Below, piece after piece: positions 28 through 4,186 of a DNA stretch of 14,275 nucleotides (positions within the stretch are counted from its first letter, which is position 1; every line of letters starts with the position of its first letter). The translations under genes were made by a program, and so were the position numbers. Source of the stretch: Anaerolineae bacterium (GTDB lineage Bacteria > Chloroflexota > Anaerolineae > JAFGEY01); assembly GCA_016931365.1 (NCBI GenBank), contig JAFGEY010000317.1:1-14275 (forward strand), read 5' to 3'. The notes below the pieces were generated by a model that was not told where the DNA came from, searched no databases, and saw nothing but the letters and a program-made list of their open reading frames with translations.

Positions 28-1002
28 ATGTCGATGTTAACGTTGCAAACGAAAAATTTAAAGAAACTTAGTTTCCGGTGTACTCAGTTACTATCACAAC
101 AAACTATACAGGAAATCAGCAAGTCTTTAGCCGGACTGGCAAACGGTTCTGTACAGTCAGGACGCACGATTGAATTTCTCAGCGATCAGTTTACAAAGCG
201 ATACCGTCGGCCGTCAAACTTCTCGATAAACAAGAGTAATCCCATCAAGGAAATTCGACATGATTGTGGAGGTGCATCGGCGGTAGCTTGGCTTGCGATG
301 ACAATCTCACATTTAGGTACATCTTCTTCTTGGGAGATTTATGAGGAATATTCACGCTATACAGGGGTAATCTCAACAATATCCTCATGTATTGACGCAT
401 CGGGAGTGTACTCACTTTCCAACTATCTTTATCGATTACTTTTAGAAAATTTGTATATATTGCGTACACCTCCCCAAGAAGGTAGTGTTGTGTCTCCGGT
501 TTTTGAAAAACAATCATCACTTCAAGAAATTGCTCCTATTGCTGCTAGTGGACCTGTCAATGAAACATCCTCATCTGTTGAAGGCGACCTTTCTCAAAAG
601 GAAATGGAGCATTATAGAGAACCATCTGCGAGTAGAACTCCTCCTACATTTTCATCTGAAAACGCCCCACAAAAACACTCAAGGTCGTTTCCTCTCCCTG
701 AAAATCAAAAAGTGTATCCACCCGATAGCCATATCGTAAGTATAGATGGTCTTTATGGAAATGAGTTATCCTTAATAGAAATAAAGCAAGGTTATCAGTA
801 TAGGATTAGTAGCAAGAATTTGATTTCACTCGTAGACTGTTCAAATTACTATGAATTTATCATTATTCAATGGTTGTTTTGGCTTTTTGAGAAAAAAATC
901 AGATTGGTTCTTCCTAAAAATGGCTTAATGGAACGGCAGGTAAAAGATATAAATCAATTCTACAGTATTGTCACTTCTTCCAGTGATCGCTTCATGCGAT
1001 AG
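28..1002 (+). CDS. Putative C39-like (papain-fold) cysteine peptidase on an integron-type gene cassette
   Basis: Encodes 324 residues and is far richer in A and T than every other gene here, which suggests transfer. An N-terminal stretch around residues 75-140 reads R-H-D-C80-G-G-A...A-M...L-G, like the nucleophile region of C39-type peptidases (DCG.A..AM...G). Residues 148-228 are a low-complexity Ser/Pro/Glu linker. After it, His235-I-V-S-I-D-G...E251-I-K-Q-G255 matches the C39 pattern of His, a beta hairpin, then D-P-x-x-G exactly 16 residues on, except that Glu replaces Asp. No signal peptide or clear membrane helix is seen, so it is probably cytoplasmic. The start is ATG 28 (ATG 34 is an alternative); the frame is closed by a stop at 16-18 and no good ribosome site is visible. 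The substrate is unknown. A PD-(D/E)xK nuclease reading of D240...E251-I-K253 is a weaker alternative. The gene is confident; the peptidase call is moderate. Confidence 0.6.
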   Translation: MSMLTLQTKNLKKLSFRCTQLLSQQTIQEISKSLAGLANGSVQSGRTIEFLSDQFTKRYRRPSNFSINKSNPIKEIRHDCGGASAVAWLAMTISHLGTSSSWEIYEEYSRYTGVISTISSCIDASGVYSLSNYLYRLLLENLYILRTPPQEGSVVSPVFEKQSSLQEIAPIAASGPVNETSSSVEGDLSQKEMEHYREPSASRTPPTFSSENAPQKHSRSFPLPENQKVYPPDSHIVSIDGLYGNELSLIEIKQGYQYRISSKNLISLVDCSNYYEFIIIQWLFWLFEKKIRLVLPKNGLMERQVKDINQFYSIVTSSSDRFMR

Positions 1003-1389: not shown

Positions 1390-2661
1390 TTAACCGGCCG
1401 CGTTCCGCCGGCCCTTGTACGCCGCTTTGCCCAGCCACACGGCCGTCCGGCCCAATTCCGCCTCGATCGCCAGCAGGCGGTTGTGCTCGCCCGCCCGCGC
1501 CTGCCCGGCGTTCAGCCCGACGGCAAAATCGCCCACGCTGTGCTGATCGCCGCGGCTGCCACAGGGGTGGACGTTGTAGCCGTTGCTCAAAGCCAGGCGG
1601 CAGGCGGCCAGCGCCTCGCTCACCGTGCCGACCTGGGTGATCTTGAGCACCATCGAGTTGGCCGCGCCCGCCGCGATGCCCTGTCGCAGCCGCGCGGCGT
1701 TGGTGGTGAACAGGTCGTCGCCCACCACCTCGATGCCCAGTTCCCGCGTCGCCAGGGCGTGCCCCTCAAAGTCCTCTTCGTGCAGCGGGTCTTCGAGCGA
1801 GACGATGGGATAGCTGGTCACCCAATCTTTGAGCAGCGCGATCAGTTCGTCGCGCGTCTTTTCGCCCGGTGAAAACAGGCCCACGTAGCGGTCGATGTCC
1901 GGCTCGTAGTAGCAGTCGGCGGCGCAGTCGAAATAAATGCCCATCCGGCCTTCGTAGCCGCAGCGGACGATGCTCTCGGTCATTGTTTCGAGCAGTTCGC
2001 GGTCGTCGCCGATCACCCCGGCCAGTCCCCGGCCGTGATAGGCGGGGAAATAGGTGTCCGGGTAGCGCTCGCGCAGCAGCCGTTTGACCTCCTCTGAGCA
2101 GCGCCAGCTCCAGTGCAATGCCTCCGCGTAGCCGCCTGCACCGTAAGCGGCGAACTCGTAGCTGGGCTTGAACCAGCGCGAGTTGCCCGGATCGCGGTAG
2201 CGCCCGCCGGCGCCGATGCCGACGATGGGGATGGGCAGCGTGCAGGCATTGGCCCCGCCGATGTATCGATAGAGCGGCAGTCCCACGCTGGCCGCGGCAG
2301 CCTTGAGGGCAGCCAGCGATACGCCGACAATGGCGTTCGCGCCGAGTTTGGATTTCTCCGGCGTGCCATCCAATTCGATCATCAACCGGTCGATCTCGCC
2401 CTGGGCGGTCACGTCCATCCCGATCAGCGCCGGGGCAATGACCTCGGTGATTTGGGCGACTGCCTTGCGCACGCCAAGCCCTTTGTAACGGTCACCGCCG
2501 TCGAGCAGGAATTTGGCTTCGTGCGTGCCGGTCGACACGCCCGATTCGGGCGTCGATGTGCCGGTCGCACCGCAATCTGTCGTCACGGTGACTTCCAGAG
2601 CCAGCAATCCGCGCTGGGCCATAATTTCACGCGCAGTGATGCTTTGAATTGTCGATCCCAT
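1390..2661 (-). CDS. Divergent enolase-family protein (noncanonical active site)
   Basis: Encodes 423 residues, close to the usual enolase length, and aligns with enolases from end to end. Family signatures kept: ITAREI near the start, SGVSTG (40-45, with the mobile-loop Ser43), ELDGTPEKSKLGANAI..SLA (96-117), metal ligands Asp245, Glu290 (SLEDP) and Asp315 (VGDDL), catalytic-base Lys340 (VLKITQVGT) and a His at 365. Lost or changed: SRGNPT becomes QRGLLA; GGSHAGN (yeast His159) is replaced by GGRYRDPGN; the GDEGGFAP loop with the catalytic Glu (yeast Glu211) becomes YHGRGLAG; and the Lys in GQIKTG (yeast Lys396) is Arg389. Canonical 2-phosphoglycerate dehydration is therefore doubtful. A related 2-hydroxy acid or phospho-acid substrate is more likely (inference). 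The start has a clear AAGGAG ribosome site about 6 bases upstream, and the gene follows the glycerate-kinase-like gene by 16 bases, so they share a transcript. Automatic annotation would probably call it eno; I withhold the symbol. Confidence 0.85.
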   Translation of the reverse strand: MGSTIQSITAREIMAQRGLLALEVTVTTDCGATGTSTPESGVSTGTHEAKFLLDGGDRYKGLGVRKAVAQITEVIAPALIGMDVTAQGEIDRLMIELDGTPEKSKLGANAIVGVSLAALKAAAASVGLPLYRYIGGANACTLPIPIVGIGAGGRYRDPGNSRWFKPSYEFAAYGAGGYAEALHWSWRCSEEVKRLLRERYPDTYFPAYHGRGLAGVIGDDRELLETMTESIVRCGYEGRMGIYFDCAADCYYEPDIDRYVGLFSPGEKTRDELIALLKDWVTSYPIVSLEDPLHEEDFEGHALATRELGIEVVGDDLFTTNAARLRQGIAAGAANSMVLKITQVGTVSEALAACRLALSNGYNVHPCGSRGDQHSVGDFAVGLNAGQARAGEHNRLLAIEAELGRTAVWLGKAAYKGRRNAAG

Positions 2662-2677
2662 TTTTTTCTCCTTTTTG

Positions 2678-4126
2678 CTAGCGAACGAGGGTCACGCGCA
2701 GGTCGCCCAGGCACGCGCCAGTGTTGCCGGTGTGAATCGCGCTGTCGAGCTCGATCAGGGCGATCGTTGAATTGTGGTTTCCAAGTTCGGCGGTCACGTC
2801 GACGCCGCGTTCTGCGGCCAGGGCCATCGTATAGCCATCGACGATGCCGCCGGCCATACAGATCGTCTCCCCGGCGCCGGCGTGCTGCGTGCCGGGGCCG
2901 TCGGTGCCGTCGGAATCCATCGCCGCCACCACCACCCGCGTGCTCGCCAGCCGCCCGCTGCCGAGCGTTTGGGCCCAGCGCAGGGCAAATTCCTGGTTTC
3001 TCCCGCCGATGCCGGTTGCATCGCCGACCGGCACGTCGAGGTGCCCGCCGGTGATCAAGGCCACCGGCGGCGCGAAGGGACGGCCGTAACGCTCGCATTC
3101 GCAGGCGATTTGCGCCAGGACATTGGCTGCCTCGGCCGATTGTGCCGTCAGGTGCGAGGACAAAATCACCCCTTTGAATCCCAACGCTTCGGCCCTGGCG
3201 CGCGCCCCTTCAACCATCTGGTACAGGTCGATCGGTTGCCAATAGCTGGCGCGCATCCCGGCGAACAGTGTGCGATCTGGCACCTCATAGCACGCCTCTC
3301 CGCTTTCCAGCGCCGCGCGCAATGTGGGGGACAACGCGAACCACCAGGGCCTGGTTTTTAACTCGCACACCGCCTGGGACAATTTCCGTTCCGGCGGTGG
3401 CCAGCTCGGCGACCAGGAACCGCTTTCGGGCAGAGGGCCGTGCCAACGCGGGAACAAACCCACCTGCATGATCAGGTTGACCATGCGGGCGGGATGGATT
3501 GCCGCAGTGATCCGCCCACACTTGACTGCTGAGGCGTAGGGCATCACTGCGTGGATCAGCGCTTGCGAACCGTGCCTGATCGCCAGGAAATAGACCTGAC
3601 GGATGTCGTCGAGGGTCAGACCGGGTGCAGGAAGCTCGCAGAGCGACGACGCGCCGTCGGAAAAAAGGGTGAAGACGAGGTCGCGCTCGCCCGCCTGTTG
3701 GGCAATGTCCATCATCTTGTGCGCGCCGATCACGCTTTGTTCGTCGGGGACAGGATGCGCGGCTTCTGTCACCTCGATGCGGCGCAACTGGCGGCCTTCG
3801 CCCTGTTTGACCGTGATTGCGCCGGTAGTAAGCCGGTCGCCGAGCAGGTCTTCAAGCGCCTGGGCCTGACGCTGCACGGCTTTGCCCGCGCCGACCACAT
3901 AGATGTGGTCAATCCCGCGCAGATCGATGACCTCGTCGCCAAAGCCAGAGACGTCCATCTCTGGATGTCCGCCGACCAGCAGCGTGTCGCCCTCGATGCG
4001 GATCAGATTCAGCGTGTTTTGGTAGGGATCGGCGGCAGTTAAGCCGCCTTCGAGGATATCCAGGGCCAGCGACCGCCCTTCGCGGTCGCTGTGTGAGGTG
4101 AGTTCGGCTCGATTTTTGATCCACAT
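2678..4126 (-). CDS. Divergent MOFRL-type glycerate 2-kinase homologue
   Basis: Encodes 482 residues from ATG 4126, chosen because AAGGAGG lies 6 bases upstream; an open frame extends to 4231 but lacks such a site and overlaps the promoter. The family (DUF4147 plus MOFRL) phosphorylates D-glycerate to 2-phosphoglycerate with ATP in the cytoplasm. Visible marks: YVVGAGKA (76-83, with the conserved Lys82), EAAHPVPDE (121-129), and in the C-terminal MOFRL domain GIGGRNQEFAL (372-382), DSDGTDGPGT (404-413) and TGNTGACLGDL (466-476). Departures: the SGGGSALL phosphate loop is FSDGASSL (155-162), the KHLS.IKGGRLA motif is PYASAVKCGRI (196-206), and the NDSY motif is NHNST. The middle of the protein (about 224-262, many Trp and Pro) has no clear family match. 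It is the first gene of a two-gene operon with the enolase-like gene. It is probably a kinase for a glycerate-like acid, though another reaction is possible. Confidence 0.8.
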   Translation of the reverse strand: MWIKNRAELTSHSDREGRSLALDILEGGLTAADPYQNTLNLIRIEGDTLLVGGHPEMDVSGFGDEVIDLRGIDHIYVVGAGKAVQRQAQALEDLLGDRLTTGAITVKQGEGRQLRRIEVTEAAHPVPDEQSVIGAHKMMDIAQQAGERDLVFTLFSDGASSLCELPAPGLTLDDIRQVYFLAIRHGSQALIHAVMPYASAVKCGRITAAIHPARMVNLIMQVGLFPRWHGPLPESGSWSPSWPPPERKLSQAVCELKTRPWWFALSPTLRAALESGEACYEVPDRTLFAGMRASYWQPIDLYQMVEGARARAEALGFKGVILSSHLTAQSAEAANVLAQIACECERYGRPFAPPVALITGGHLDVPVGDATGIGGRNQEFALRWAQTLGSGRLASTRVVVAAMDSDGTDGPGTQHAGAGETICMAGGIVDGYTMALAAERGVDVTAELGNHNSTIALIELDSAIHTGNTGACLGDLRVTLVR

Positions 4127-4157: not shown

Positions 4158-4186
4158 ATTGTACCACCAAGCCGGTACGCCGCCAA
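4158..4186 (-). promoter_or_regulatory. Sigma70-type promoter of the kinase/enolase-like operon
   Basis: Read on the minus strand, TTGGCG (4186-4181), a 17-base spacer and TACAAT (4163-4158) form a good vegetative promoter. Transcription would start near 4151, giving a leader of about 25 bases to the ATG at 4126. This supports the shorter start of the kinase-like gene. Confidence 0.55.

Follow-up and report, generated by a model that had tools for sequence, protein, structure and literature searches.

The window, a stretch of 14,275 nucleotides from a contig of an Anaerolineae bacterium (JAFGEY010000317.1), carries two adjoining genes for an altered glycerate kinase and an altered enolase, which, as judged from their sequences, evolved in step, their probable substrate being an uncommon glycerate relative that arises in sugar breakdown. 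The pair is real and conserved, and it is probably misnamed by automatic annotation. The kinase consists of the DUF4147 and MOFRL domains of Pfam and the enolase-like protein of Enolase_N and Enolase_C (Table 1); the length of the kinase is counted from the ATG at position 4126, the open frame extending to 4231. The initial annotation of this DNA had described two genes with a 16-base gap and one promoter, and the coordinates of the open reading frames bear out the former. As for the latter, one promoter-like site lies 5' of the kinase and matches the consensus at 9 of 12 positions, and a scan of the gap for minus-strand promoter-like sites found none, which supports the claim on consensus evidence. 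Reading of the open reading frames, Pfam and NCBIfam identified no catabolic gene among the neighbours of the pair in the window: an acetyltransferase, a glycosyltransferase and a TPR protein lie on one flank and an open reading frame without a Pfam or NCBIfam match on the other, with LepA, TrmB, signal peptidase I and polynucleotide phosphorylase, as read by eye, farther away.

Table 1. Features of the kinase-enolase pair, with positions in the window; TM1585 residues and yeast K396 follow the available portions of PMC1079889 and PMC4922564, respectively.
Feature	Position	Strand	Basis
Divergent class II (DUF4147/MOFRL) glycerate-kinase-like gene, 482 aa	2678..4126	-	ORF + Pfam
Divergent enolase-like gene, 423 aa, PCxSRG[DE] clade	1390..2661	-	ORF + Pfam
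Gap of 16 bases from kinase stop to enolase start	2662..2677	-	
Promoter-like site TTGGCG-17-TACAAT, 5' of the kinase	4158..4186	-	consensus match only
Kinase K82, position of Lys47 of TM1585, kept	3881..3883	-	alignment
Kinase V222, position of Asp189 of TM1585, changed	3461..3463	-	alignment
Kinase H362, position of Glu312 of TM1585, changed	3041..3043	-	alignment
Kinase R376, position of Arg325 of TM1585, kept	2999..3001	-	alignment
Kinase D406, position of Asp351 of TM1585, kept	2909..2911	-	alignment
Kinase C472, position of Asn407 of TM1585, changed	2711..2713	-	alignment
Enolase loop 2 region (residues 150-168), basic RYR...RWFKPSY, acidic in the canonical set	2158..2214	-	
Enolase region of about residues 204-217, replacing the canonical VGDEGGFAP loop that bears E211	2011..2052	-	
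Enolase K340, counterpart of the canonical base lysine (yeast K345), kept	1642..1644	-	alignment
Enolase HPCGSRGD motif (residues 365-372), replacing SHRSGET	1546..1569	-	
Enolase R389, replacing the canonical lysine (yeast K396)	1495..1497	-	alignment

The enolase-like protein scores 324.1 bits with the NCBIfam model for phosphopyruvate hydratase (TIGR01060) and thereby exceeds the cut-off of 300, for which reason its name may mislead. Its structure model, built from 63 sequences that included 8 enolases of the canonical set, has a pLDDT of 91.6 and a pTM of 0.90 and shows the enolase fold across the full length, being weaker in loop 2 (blocks at 68 and 77) and near residues 201-210 (74); an earlier model from 24 close sequences (pLDDT 67.5) was set aside. 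The 50 matches that Foldseek and VIA-align listed for the model are all enolases, and M. tuberculosis enolases mutated at E204 and E163, which we take to be the counterparts of yeast E211 and E168, are among the nearest solved structures. All divergent enolases that cover the respective columns retain the metal ligands D245 (37/37), E290 (36/36) and D316 (35/35), presumably equivalent to yeast D246, E295 and D320, with which they were equated by motif, as well as the base lysine K340 (34/34) and the serine of loop 1 (36/36).

In the available text of PMC4922564, E168, E211, K345 and K396 are given as the catalytic residues of enolase, and the accessible part of PMC8495383 places active-site loop 2 at residues 156-162 of human enolase 1. 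Measured against the former, the enolase-like protein lacks both the GDEGG loop with its catalytic acid (E211) and the HRS motif. DEGG occurs in none of the 37 divergent enolases and in none of the 240 homologues among the matches listed, but in eight of the nine members of the canonical set, and HRSGE is likewise missing from all 37 and all 240. The pattern PCxSRG[DE] is found instead in every one of the 240 and in 33 of the 37 divergent enolases of the genome set, the other four being truncated, and its form HPCGSRGD in 120/120 homologues of the window enolase among the matches listed (the window protein included). The positions of R374, S375 and K396 accordingly read S, R and R in 33/33 divergent enolases, as opposed to the unchanged form in 9/9 canonical ones. 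The departure at substrate loops that the initial annotation had proposed for the enolase holds. In loop 2, K165 and P166 are invariant (37/37) and the mean net charge is +2.65 in the 37 divergent enolases versus -1.89 in the nine of the canonical set, a comparison restricted to this loop because the E211-loop columns are misaligned for canonical sequences. The loop beside C3, with the geometry of the pocket deduced from sequence, thus appears to have switched from acidic to basic in the divergent enolases. The loss of GDEGG and HRS is the strongest change in the pair and had gone unnamed in the initial annotation; within the canonical set, L084_74 is an outlier in having no DEGG.

For the kinase, the available portion of PMC1079889 names six conserved active-site residues of TM1585 (K47, D189, E312, R325, D351 and N407) and suggests that K47 and R325 may contact the phosphates of ATP; the numbering was transferred from the structure chain, assuming a 12-residue tag. 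Three of these six are kept in window-type kinases, with D189 replaced by V, E312 by H and N407 by C in 6/6, while across the divergent kinases K47 and R325 are retained in 35/35 and D351 in 34. The 29 divergent kinases not of the window type are less rewritten, with E312 in 29/29, D189 in 8/29 and N407 in 6/29. The kinase loop changes listed in the initial annotation are seen against canonical paralogues of related genomes (SGGGSA to SDGASSL, IKGGR to VKCGR and NDSY to NHNST), and SGGGSA and TNVND each occur in 0/120 kinase homologues among the matches listed, the window protein included. The kinase also falls below both NCBIfam glycerate 2-kinase cut-offs (92.7 bits against 550 and 87.8 against 670), although these models may not span all known glycerate 2-kinases. 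Taken together, the losses and retentions indicate that the window-type pair keeps a common catalytic core, with the rest rewritten in both enzymes. These motif changes are conserved in kinase and enolase alike and are not due to chance, and the altered active-site residues make it less likely that the two enzymes use D-glycerate and 2-phosphoglycerate in the normal way.

Of the 37 divergent enolases, 24 have a same-strand kinase within 250 bases or overlapping as called, with the kinase first in 18 and the enolase first in six, so that the adjoining of the two genes noticed in the window recurs in both gene orders. Since the genomes were found via the enolase, this paired fraction describes carriers only. 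The remaining enolases include one convergent with the neighbouring kinase (L062), two with the kinase about 1.3 and 4.5 kb away (L136 and L129), four with no kinase within the fetched stretch (L078, L079, L080 and L128) and six at the edge of a contig or region with no called kinase (L001, L003, L008, L066, L075_26 and L138), a kinase piece lying across the edge in L003. Conversely, at least seven divergent kinases have no adjacent enolase (L061_33, L065, L069, L070 twice, L074 and L077), and these partnerless genes on both sides imply that the coupling of the two steps is not strict. The parallel divergence claimed in the initial annotation is reflected in the trees of the 24 pairs, which share 15 of 21 splits, and in a Mantel r of 0.66 (p 1e-4), a value reached by none of 9,999 permutations, whose maximum was 0.54. 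Midpoint rooting puts all 37 divergent enolases into a single clade (support 1.0) that excludes the nine canonical-set enolases, and the 35 divergent kinases are likewise separated from seven of canonical type (support values of 0.89 and 1.0). The pairing, residue, motif and tree sets leave aside L088_0, a fragment with the divergent motif that was scored 'canon', and L136_1, a short fragment beside L136_10, and L007, which duplicates L075, is excluded from the alignment, pairing and residue counts. As a control, the fetched stretches (5.5-19 kb) around the nine canonical-set enolases contain no canonical kinase; the sole kinase among them (L060) is paired with a different enolase, which is divergent. 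Chance pairing was considered and judged unlikely, given the same-strand pairs, the shared tree splits and the co-occurrence across genomes.

That co-occurrence is clearest in the class of one carrier (G005), where, among 396 genomes, the divergent kinase is present in 16 and the divergent enolase in 16, with both in 15 (Fisher p 5e-25, uncorrected for shared ancestry), which answers the question raised in the initial annotation of whether homologues stay together: 15 genomes have both, and one each has the kinase or the enolase only. The two draws of 396 are taken as the same because genomes without a match carry identical handles, and at most four candidates were scored per genome. Both exceptions are explained by contig ends: in G008 the kinase is reduced to a 384-base piece at a contig edge, and in G009 a contig end truncates the enolase gene. 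Ten further enolase carriers, all within the 396, have the divergent kinase without exception. At the strict threshold, the divergent enolase was found in 9/199 genomes of the class of another carrier (G002) and in 16/396 of that of G005, in 1/1 and 6/15 genomes of their respective orders, and in 2/301 genomes of a draw from the phylum, both previously found in this analysis.

The pair belongs to a multi-copy family. Among the 120 matches listed per protein, homologues of the window proteins are at least 75% (enolase) and at least 54% (kinase) identical and come, where an organism is named, from Chloroflexi or Anaerolineae; a search with an enolase of the second subgroup listed 120 more, those with a name being from Chloroflexi/Chloroflexota or Anaerolineae except for a single one from Thermodesulfobacteriota. 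A scan of the genome collection reduced 53 pattern matches to nine confirmed loci, the genomes behind which have one to six enolase matches and two to seven reported kinase matches each, some of the latter being pieces of one gene. Canonical enolases with the DEGG and HRS motifs coexist in seven of these nine genomes (of the other two, G006 has one further partial enolase match and for G003 no second match was reported), and seven of the nine likewise encode glycerate kinases of the canonical type. Among viral contigs, 44 and 6 pattern matches yielded no encoded relative.

Several of the neighbourhoods in other genomes are sugar or sugar-acid operons. This is based on 89 neighbour genes scanned with Pfam, which were picked by eye from maps and therefore carry no claim of enrichment. 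At L009 and L134, a FucI-like isomerase, a PfkB kinase and a class II aldolase, 58-67% identical between the two loci, lie upstream of kinase and enolase, followed in L134 by a second kinase, with permeases. L002 combines an MFS transporter, a DUF2284 protein, kinase, enolase, a TPP enzyme, a 2-hydroxyacid dehydrogenase, a zinc dehydrogenase, two transketolase parts and a sulfatase. L004 has a DHDPS-type aldolase, an MR_MLE enzyme, kinase, enolase, a TPP enzyme, an HpcH aldolase, a hydrolase, a dehydrogenase and an aminotransferase, and L005 and L006 have kinase, enolase and a TPP enzyme. L129 comprises a LacI-type sensor domain, an aldehyde:ferredoxin oxidoreductase, kinase, an HpcH aldolase, ABC transport genes, enolase and a 2-hydroxyacid dehydrogenase; in L079 the enolase is accompanied by a DeoC-type aldolase and an MR_MLE-type enzyme above the galactonate dehydratase cut-off, and in L080 by a sulfatase, an MR_MLE enzyme and ABC genes. 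Enzymes of the MR_MLE type, a superfamily of sugar-acid dehydratases, are thus found near L004, L006, L078, L079 and L080, and another sulfatase sits beside the L063 pair. The transporters and dehydrogenases that the initial annotation had suggested looking for are therefore present at several pairs, together with aldolases. It has to be noted that neighbours vary between loci and are uninformative at many; uninformative or non-catabolic ones occur at L132, L133 (aldo/keto reductase, SelB), L061 (DltD, AMP-ligase, MBOAT), L063 (cytidylate-kinase-like) and L067 (amino-acid-type binding protein).

From the conserved pairing, the co-divergence, the residue losses and gains and the sugar-catabolism neighbours we infer a chemistry, an order of steps and a type of substrate, in a model that we hold to be somewhat more probable than its negation. 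The parallel pathway for a glycerate analogue put forward in the initial annotation is supported in part, at the level of genomes, with the analogue itself remaining putative. In this model, the pair would be a two-step module, in which an aldolase of the same operon releases a short aldehyde, whose oxidation would supply a 2-hydroxy acid of the kind that a glycerate-type kinase would naturally take. The DUF4147-type kinase would then phosphorylate this glycerate-like acid at the expense of ATP, following which the enolase-like enzyme would take the alpha proton via K340 and the metal ions and expel the group at C3 by beta-elimination, yielding PEP or a related enol-phosphate. The substrate would differ from D-2-phosphoglycerate on its C3 side, through a different configuration (as in L-glycerate), a negatively charged substituent (as in sulfolactate, which would yield PEP and sulfite) or an extended chain (as in an aldonate), and the lost acid together with the basic loop at C3 may suit an anionic C3 group or a phosphate on that side. 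D-glyceraldehyde would need no special pair, as opposed to L-glyceraldehyde or sulfolactaldehyde. In a fungal pathway described in the available part of PMC11219438, L-glyceraldehyde is reduced to glycerol. A bolder version, which we put forward tentatively and regard as rather unlikely, is that an enolase-fold enzyme without the enolase acid expels a group other than hydroxide, e.g., sulfite from 2-phosphosulfolactate, or converts L-2-phosphoglycerate to PEP, so that some Chloroflexota would possess an additional lower glycolysis serving sulfonated or L-series sugars.

The paralogues may alternatively serve different longer 2-hydroxy acids (tetronates, pentonates or hexonates), which would be phosphorylated at O-2 and dehydrated to the enol phosphate of a 2-keto-3-deoxy acid. 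The up to six enolase-family matches per genome, the strong variation of the loops around the lost acid among subgroups and the MR_MLE-type neighbours are consistent with that. However, L009 and L134 share their upstream operon despite having different pair subtypes, which suggests a common small substrate, and no enzyme using a larger enol phosphate was identified; we regard this explanation as unlikely.

That the pair acts on ordinary D-glycerate and 2-phosphoglycerate, as a dedicated lower branch of the non-phosphorylative Entner-Doudoroff pathway with altered catalytic residues, appears distinctly unlikely. Some neighbourhoods fit such a branch, which, according to the accessible text of PMC2063504, uses an aldolase, aldehyde oxidation, glycerate 2-kinase and enolase, and the score above the phosphopyruvate hydratase cut-off would agree with it; yet this reading has to account for the absence of DEGG and HRSGE from 240/240 homologues among the matches listed, for the three altered residues of the window-type kinase and for the canonical copies of both enzymes, each in seven of nine genomes.

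Clearly improbable, too, is a sulfolactate route, in which sulfolactaldehyde from a sulfosugar would be oxidised to sulfolactate, the C2 of which would receive the phosphate before the enolase-like enzyme eliminates sulfite and leaves PEP. The departure of sulfite should need no acid, the basic C3 loop would suit a sulfonate, and the best solved-structure match of the PfkB proteins of L134 and L009 is sulfofructose kinase (123 and 117 bits, the next being 101 and 90). This match is remote, however, and the residues of sulfofructose kinase that we take to contact the sulfonate (K27, N109 and R138) are not conserved in the alignments of either PfkB, while the FucI-like protein of L134 has no PDB match at E 0.1. 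TauE sulfite exporters are encoded in seven of eight genomes but also in 14/14 controls, and in those eight genomes no exporter gene comes as close as 10 kb to a pair. Finally, since the base and metals for proton abstraction are kept and the leaving-group acid is lost, the enolase-like protein might not be a lyase at all but epimerise or racemise a phosphorylated acid. This appears very improbable, no obvious second conserved base being seen in the sequences.

Should the two-step module act on a glycerate analogue, it would add a step not described so far to the sugar breakdown of Chloroflexota and be an example of two consecutive enzymes evolving together towards a new substrate; such genes could also distort counts of glycolysis in metagenomes. 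A literature search covering titles and the openings of abstracts, with subscription papers mostly out of reach, returned no description of such a kinase-enolase pair, and the named homologues among the 240 matches listed are called enolase, phosphopyruvate hydratase or enolase-like. The pair ranks as a variant of known families. From the canonical enolase of TIGR01060 the divergent one differs by the missing DEGG loop, the exchange of HRS for C-x-S-R and of K396 for R, and the basic loop 2. With the class II glycerate 2-kinases TM1585 and PH0495, the kinase shares both domains, GxGK, GGRNQE and the Asp of the DGTDG motif, and differs from them by the altered positions of D189, E312 and N407 in the window type and by scores below the NCBIfam cut-offs. 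Sulfoquinovose breakdown of the sulfo-EMP type proceeds in the order of isomerase, PfkB kinase and aldolase. L009 and L134 resemble it in this order and in the closest solved relative of their PfkB, and seem unlike it in the presumed sulfonate-binding residues and in having no recognised sulfosugar-specific gene among the scanned neighbours. The branched, non-phosphorylative Entner-Doudoroff pathway likewise employs glycerate kinase and then enolase after an aldolase (PMC2063504, available text), but the system described here is a dedicated, co-diverged pair that stands beside canonical copies and occurs also behind a set of isomerase, PfkB and class II aldolase.

The divergent kinase and enolase-like genes of the window adjoin a stretch of low G+C content (0.39 at positions 1-1000, against 0.54-0.65 over the remaining window), which is possibly a recent insertion or a foreign segment, and the 324-residue reading frame within it returned no match in searches of Pfam and NCBIfam.

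Coordinates of features in the window and in loci (L) from related genomes (G)
Feature	Location	Strand	Remark
ORF, 324 aa	window 28-1002		in low-G+C stretch near the pair
Facing elements, G007 contig	L075:3-1451; L075:1535-4485	plus; minus	
Two tandem divergent kinases	L070:7952-11042	plus	
Further odd enolase, G001	L084:8930-10222	minus	outside the PCxSRG clade

On a single contig of G007, a kinase-enolase pair from the second subgroup faces an enolase that belongs to the window's larger subgroup. The further enolase of G001 has VGGAYTPP and SVRSGEC at the positions where canonical enolases carry VGDEGGFAP and SHRSGET, respectively.

Divergent kinases were also observed with no adjoining enolase at L065, L069 and L074, where their common neighbours are two or three of a GFO/IDH oxidoreductase, an FMN reductase and an aldo/keto reductase, and no enolase occurs near the tandem kinases of L070 in the stretch fetched.

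One family of TPP enzymes lies downstream of four pairs of the window's own subtype (L002, L004, L005 and L006). Its members at L002 and L004 reached no NCBIfam cut-off among the 25 matches listed, and the closest solved structures to the L004 enzyme are those of oxalyl-CoA decarboxylase/2-hydroxyacyl-CoA lyase and glyoxylate carboligase.
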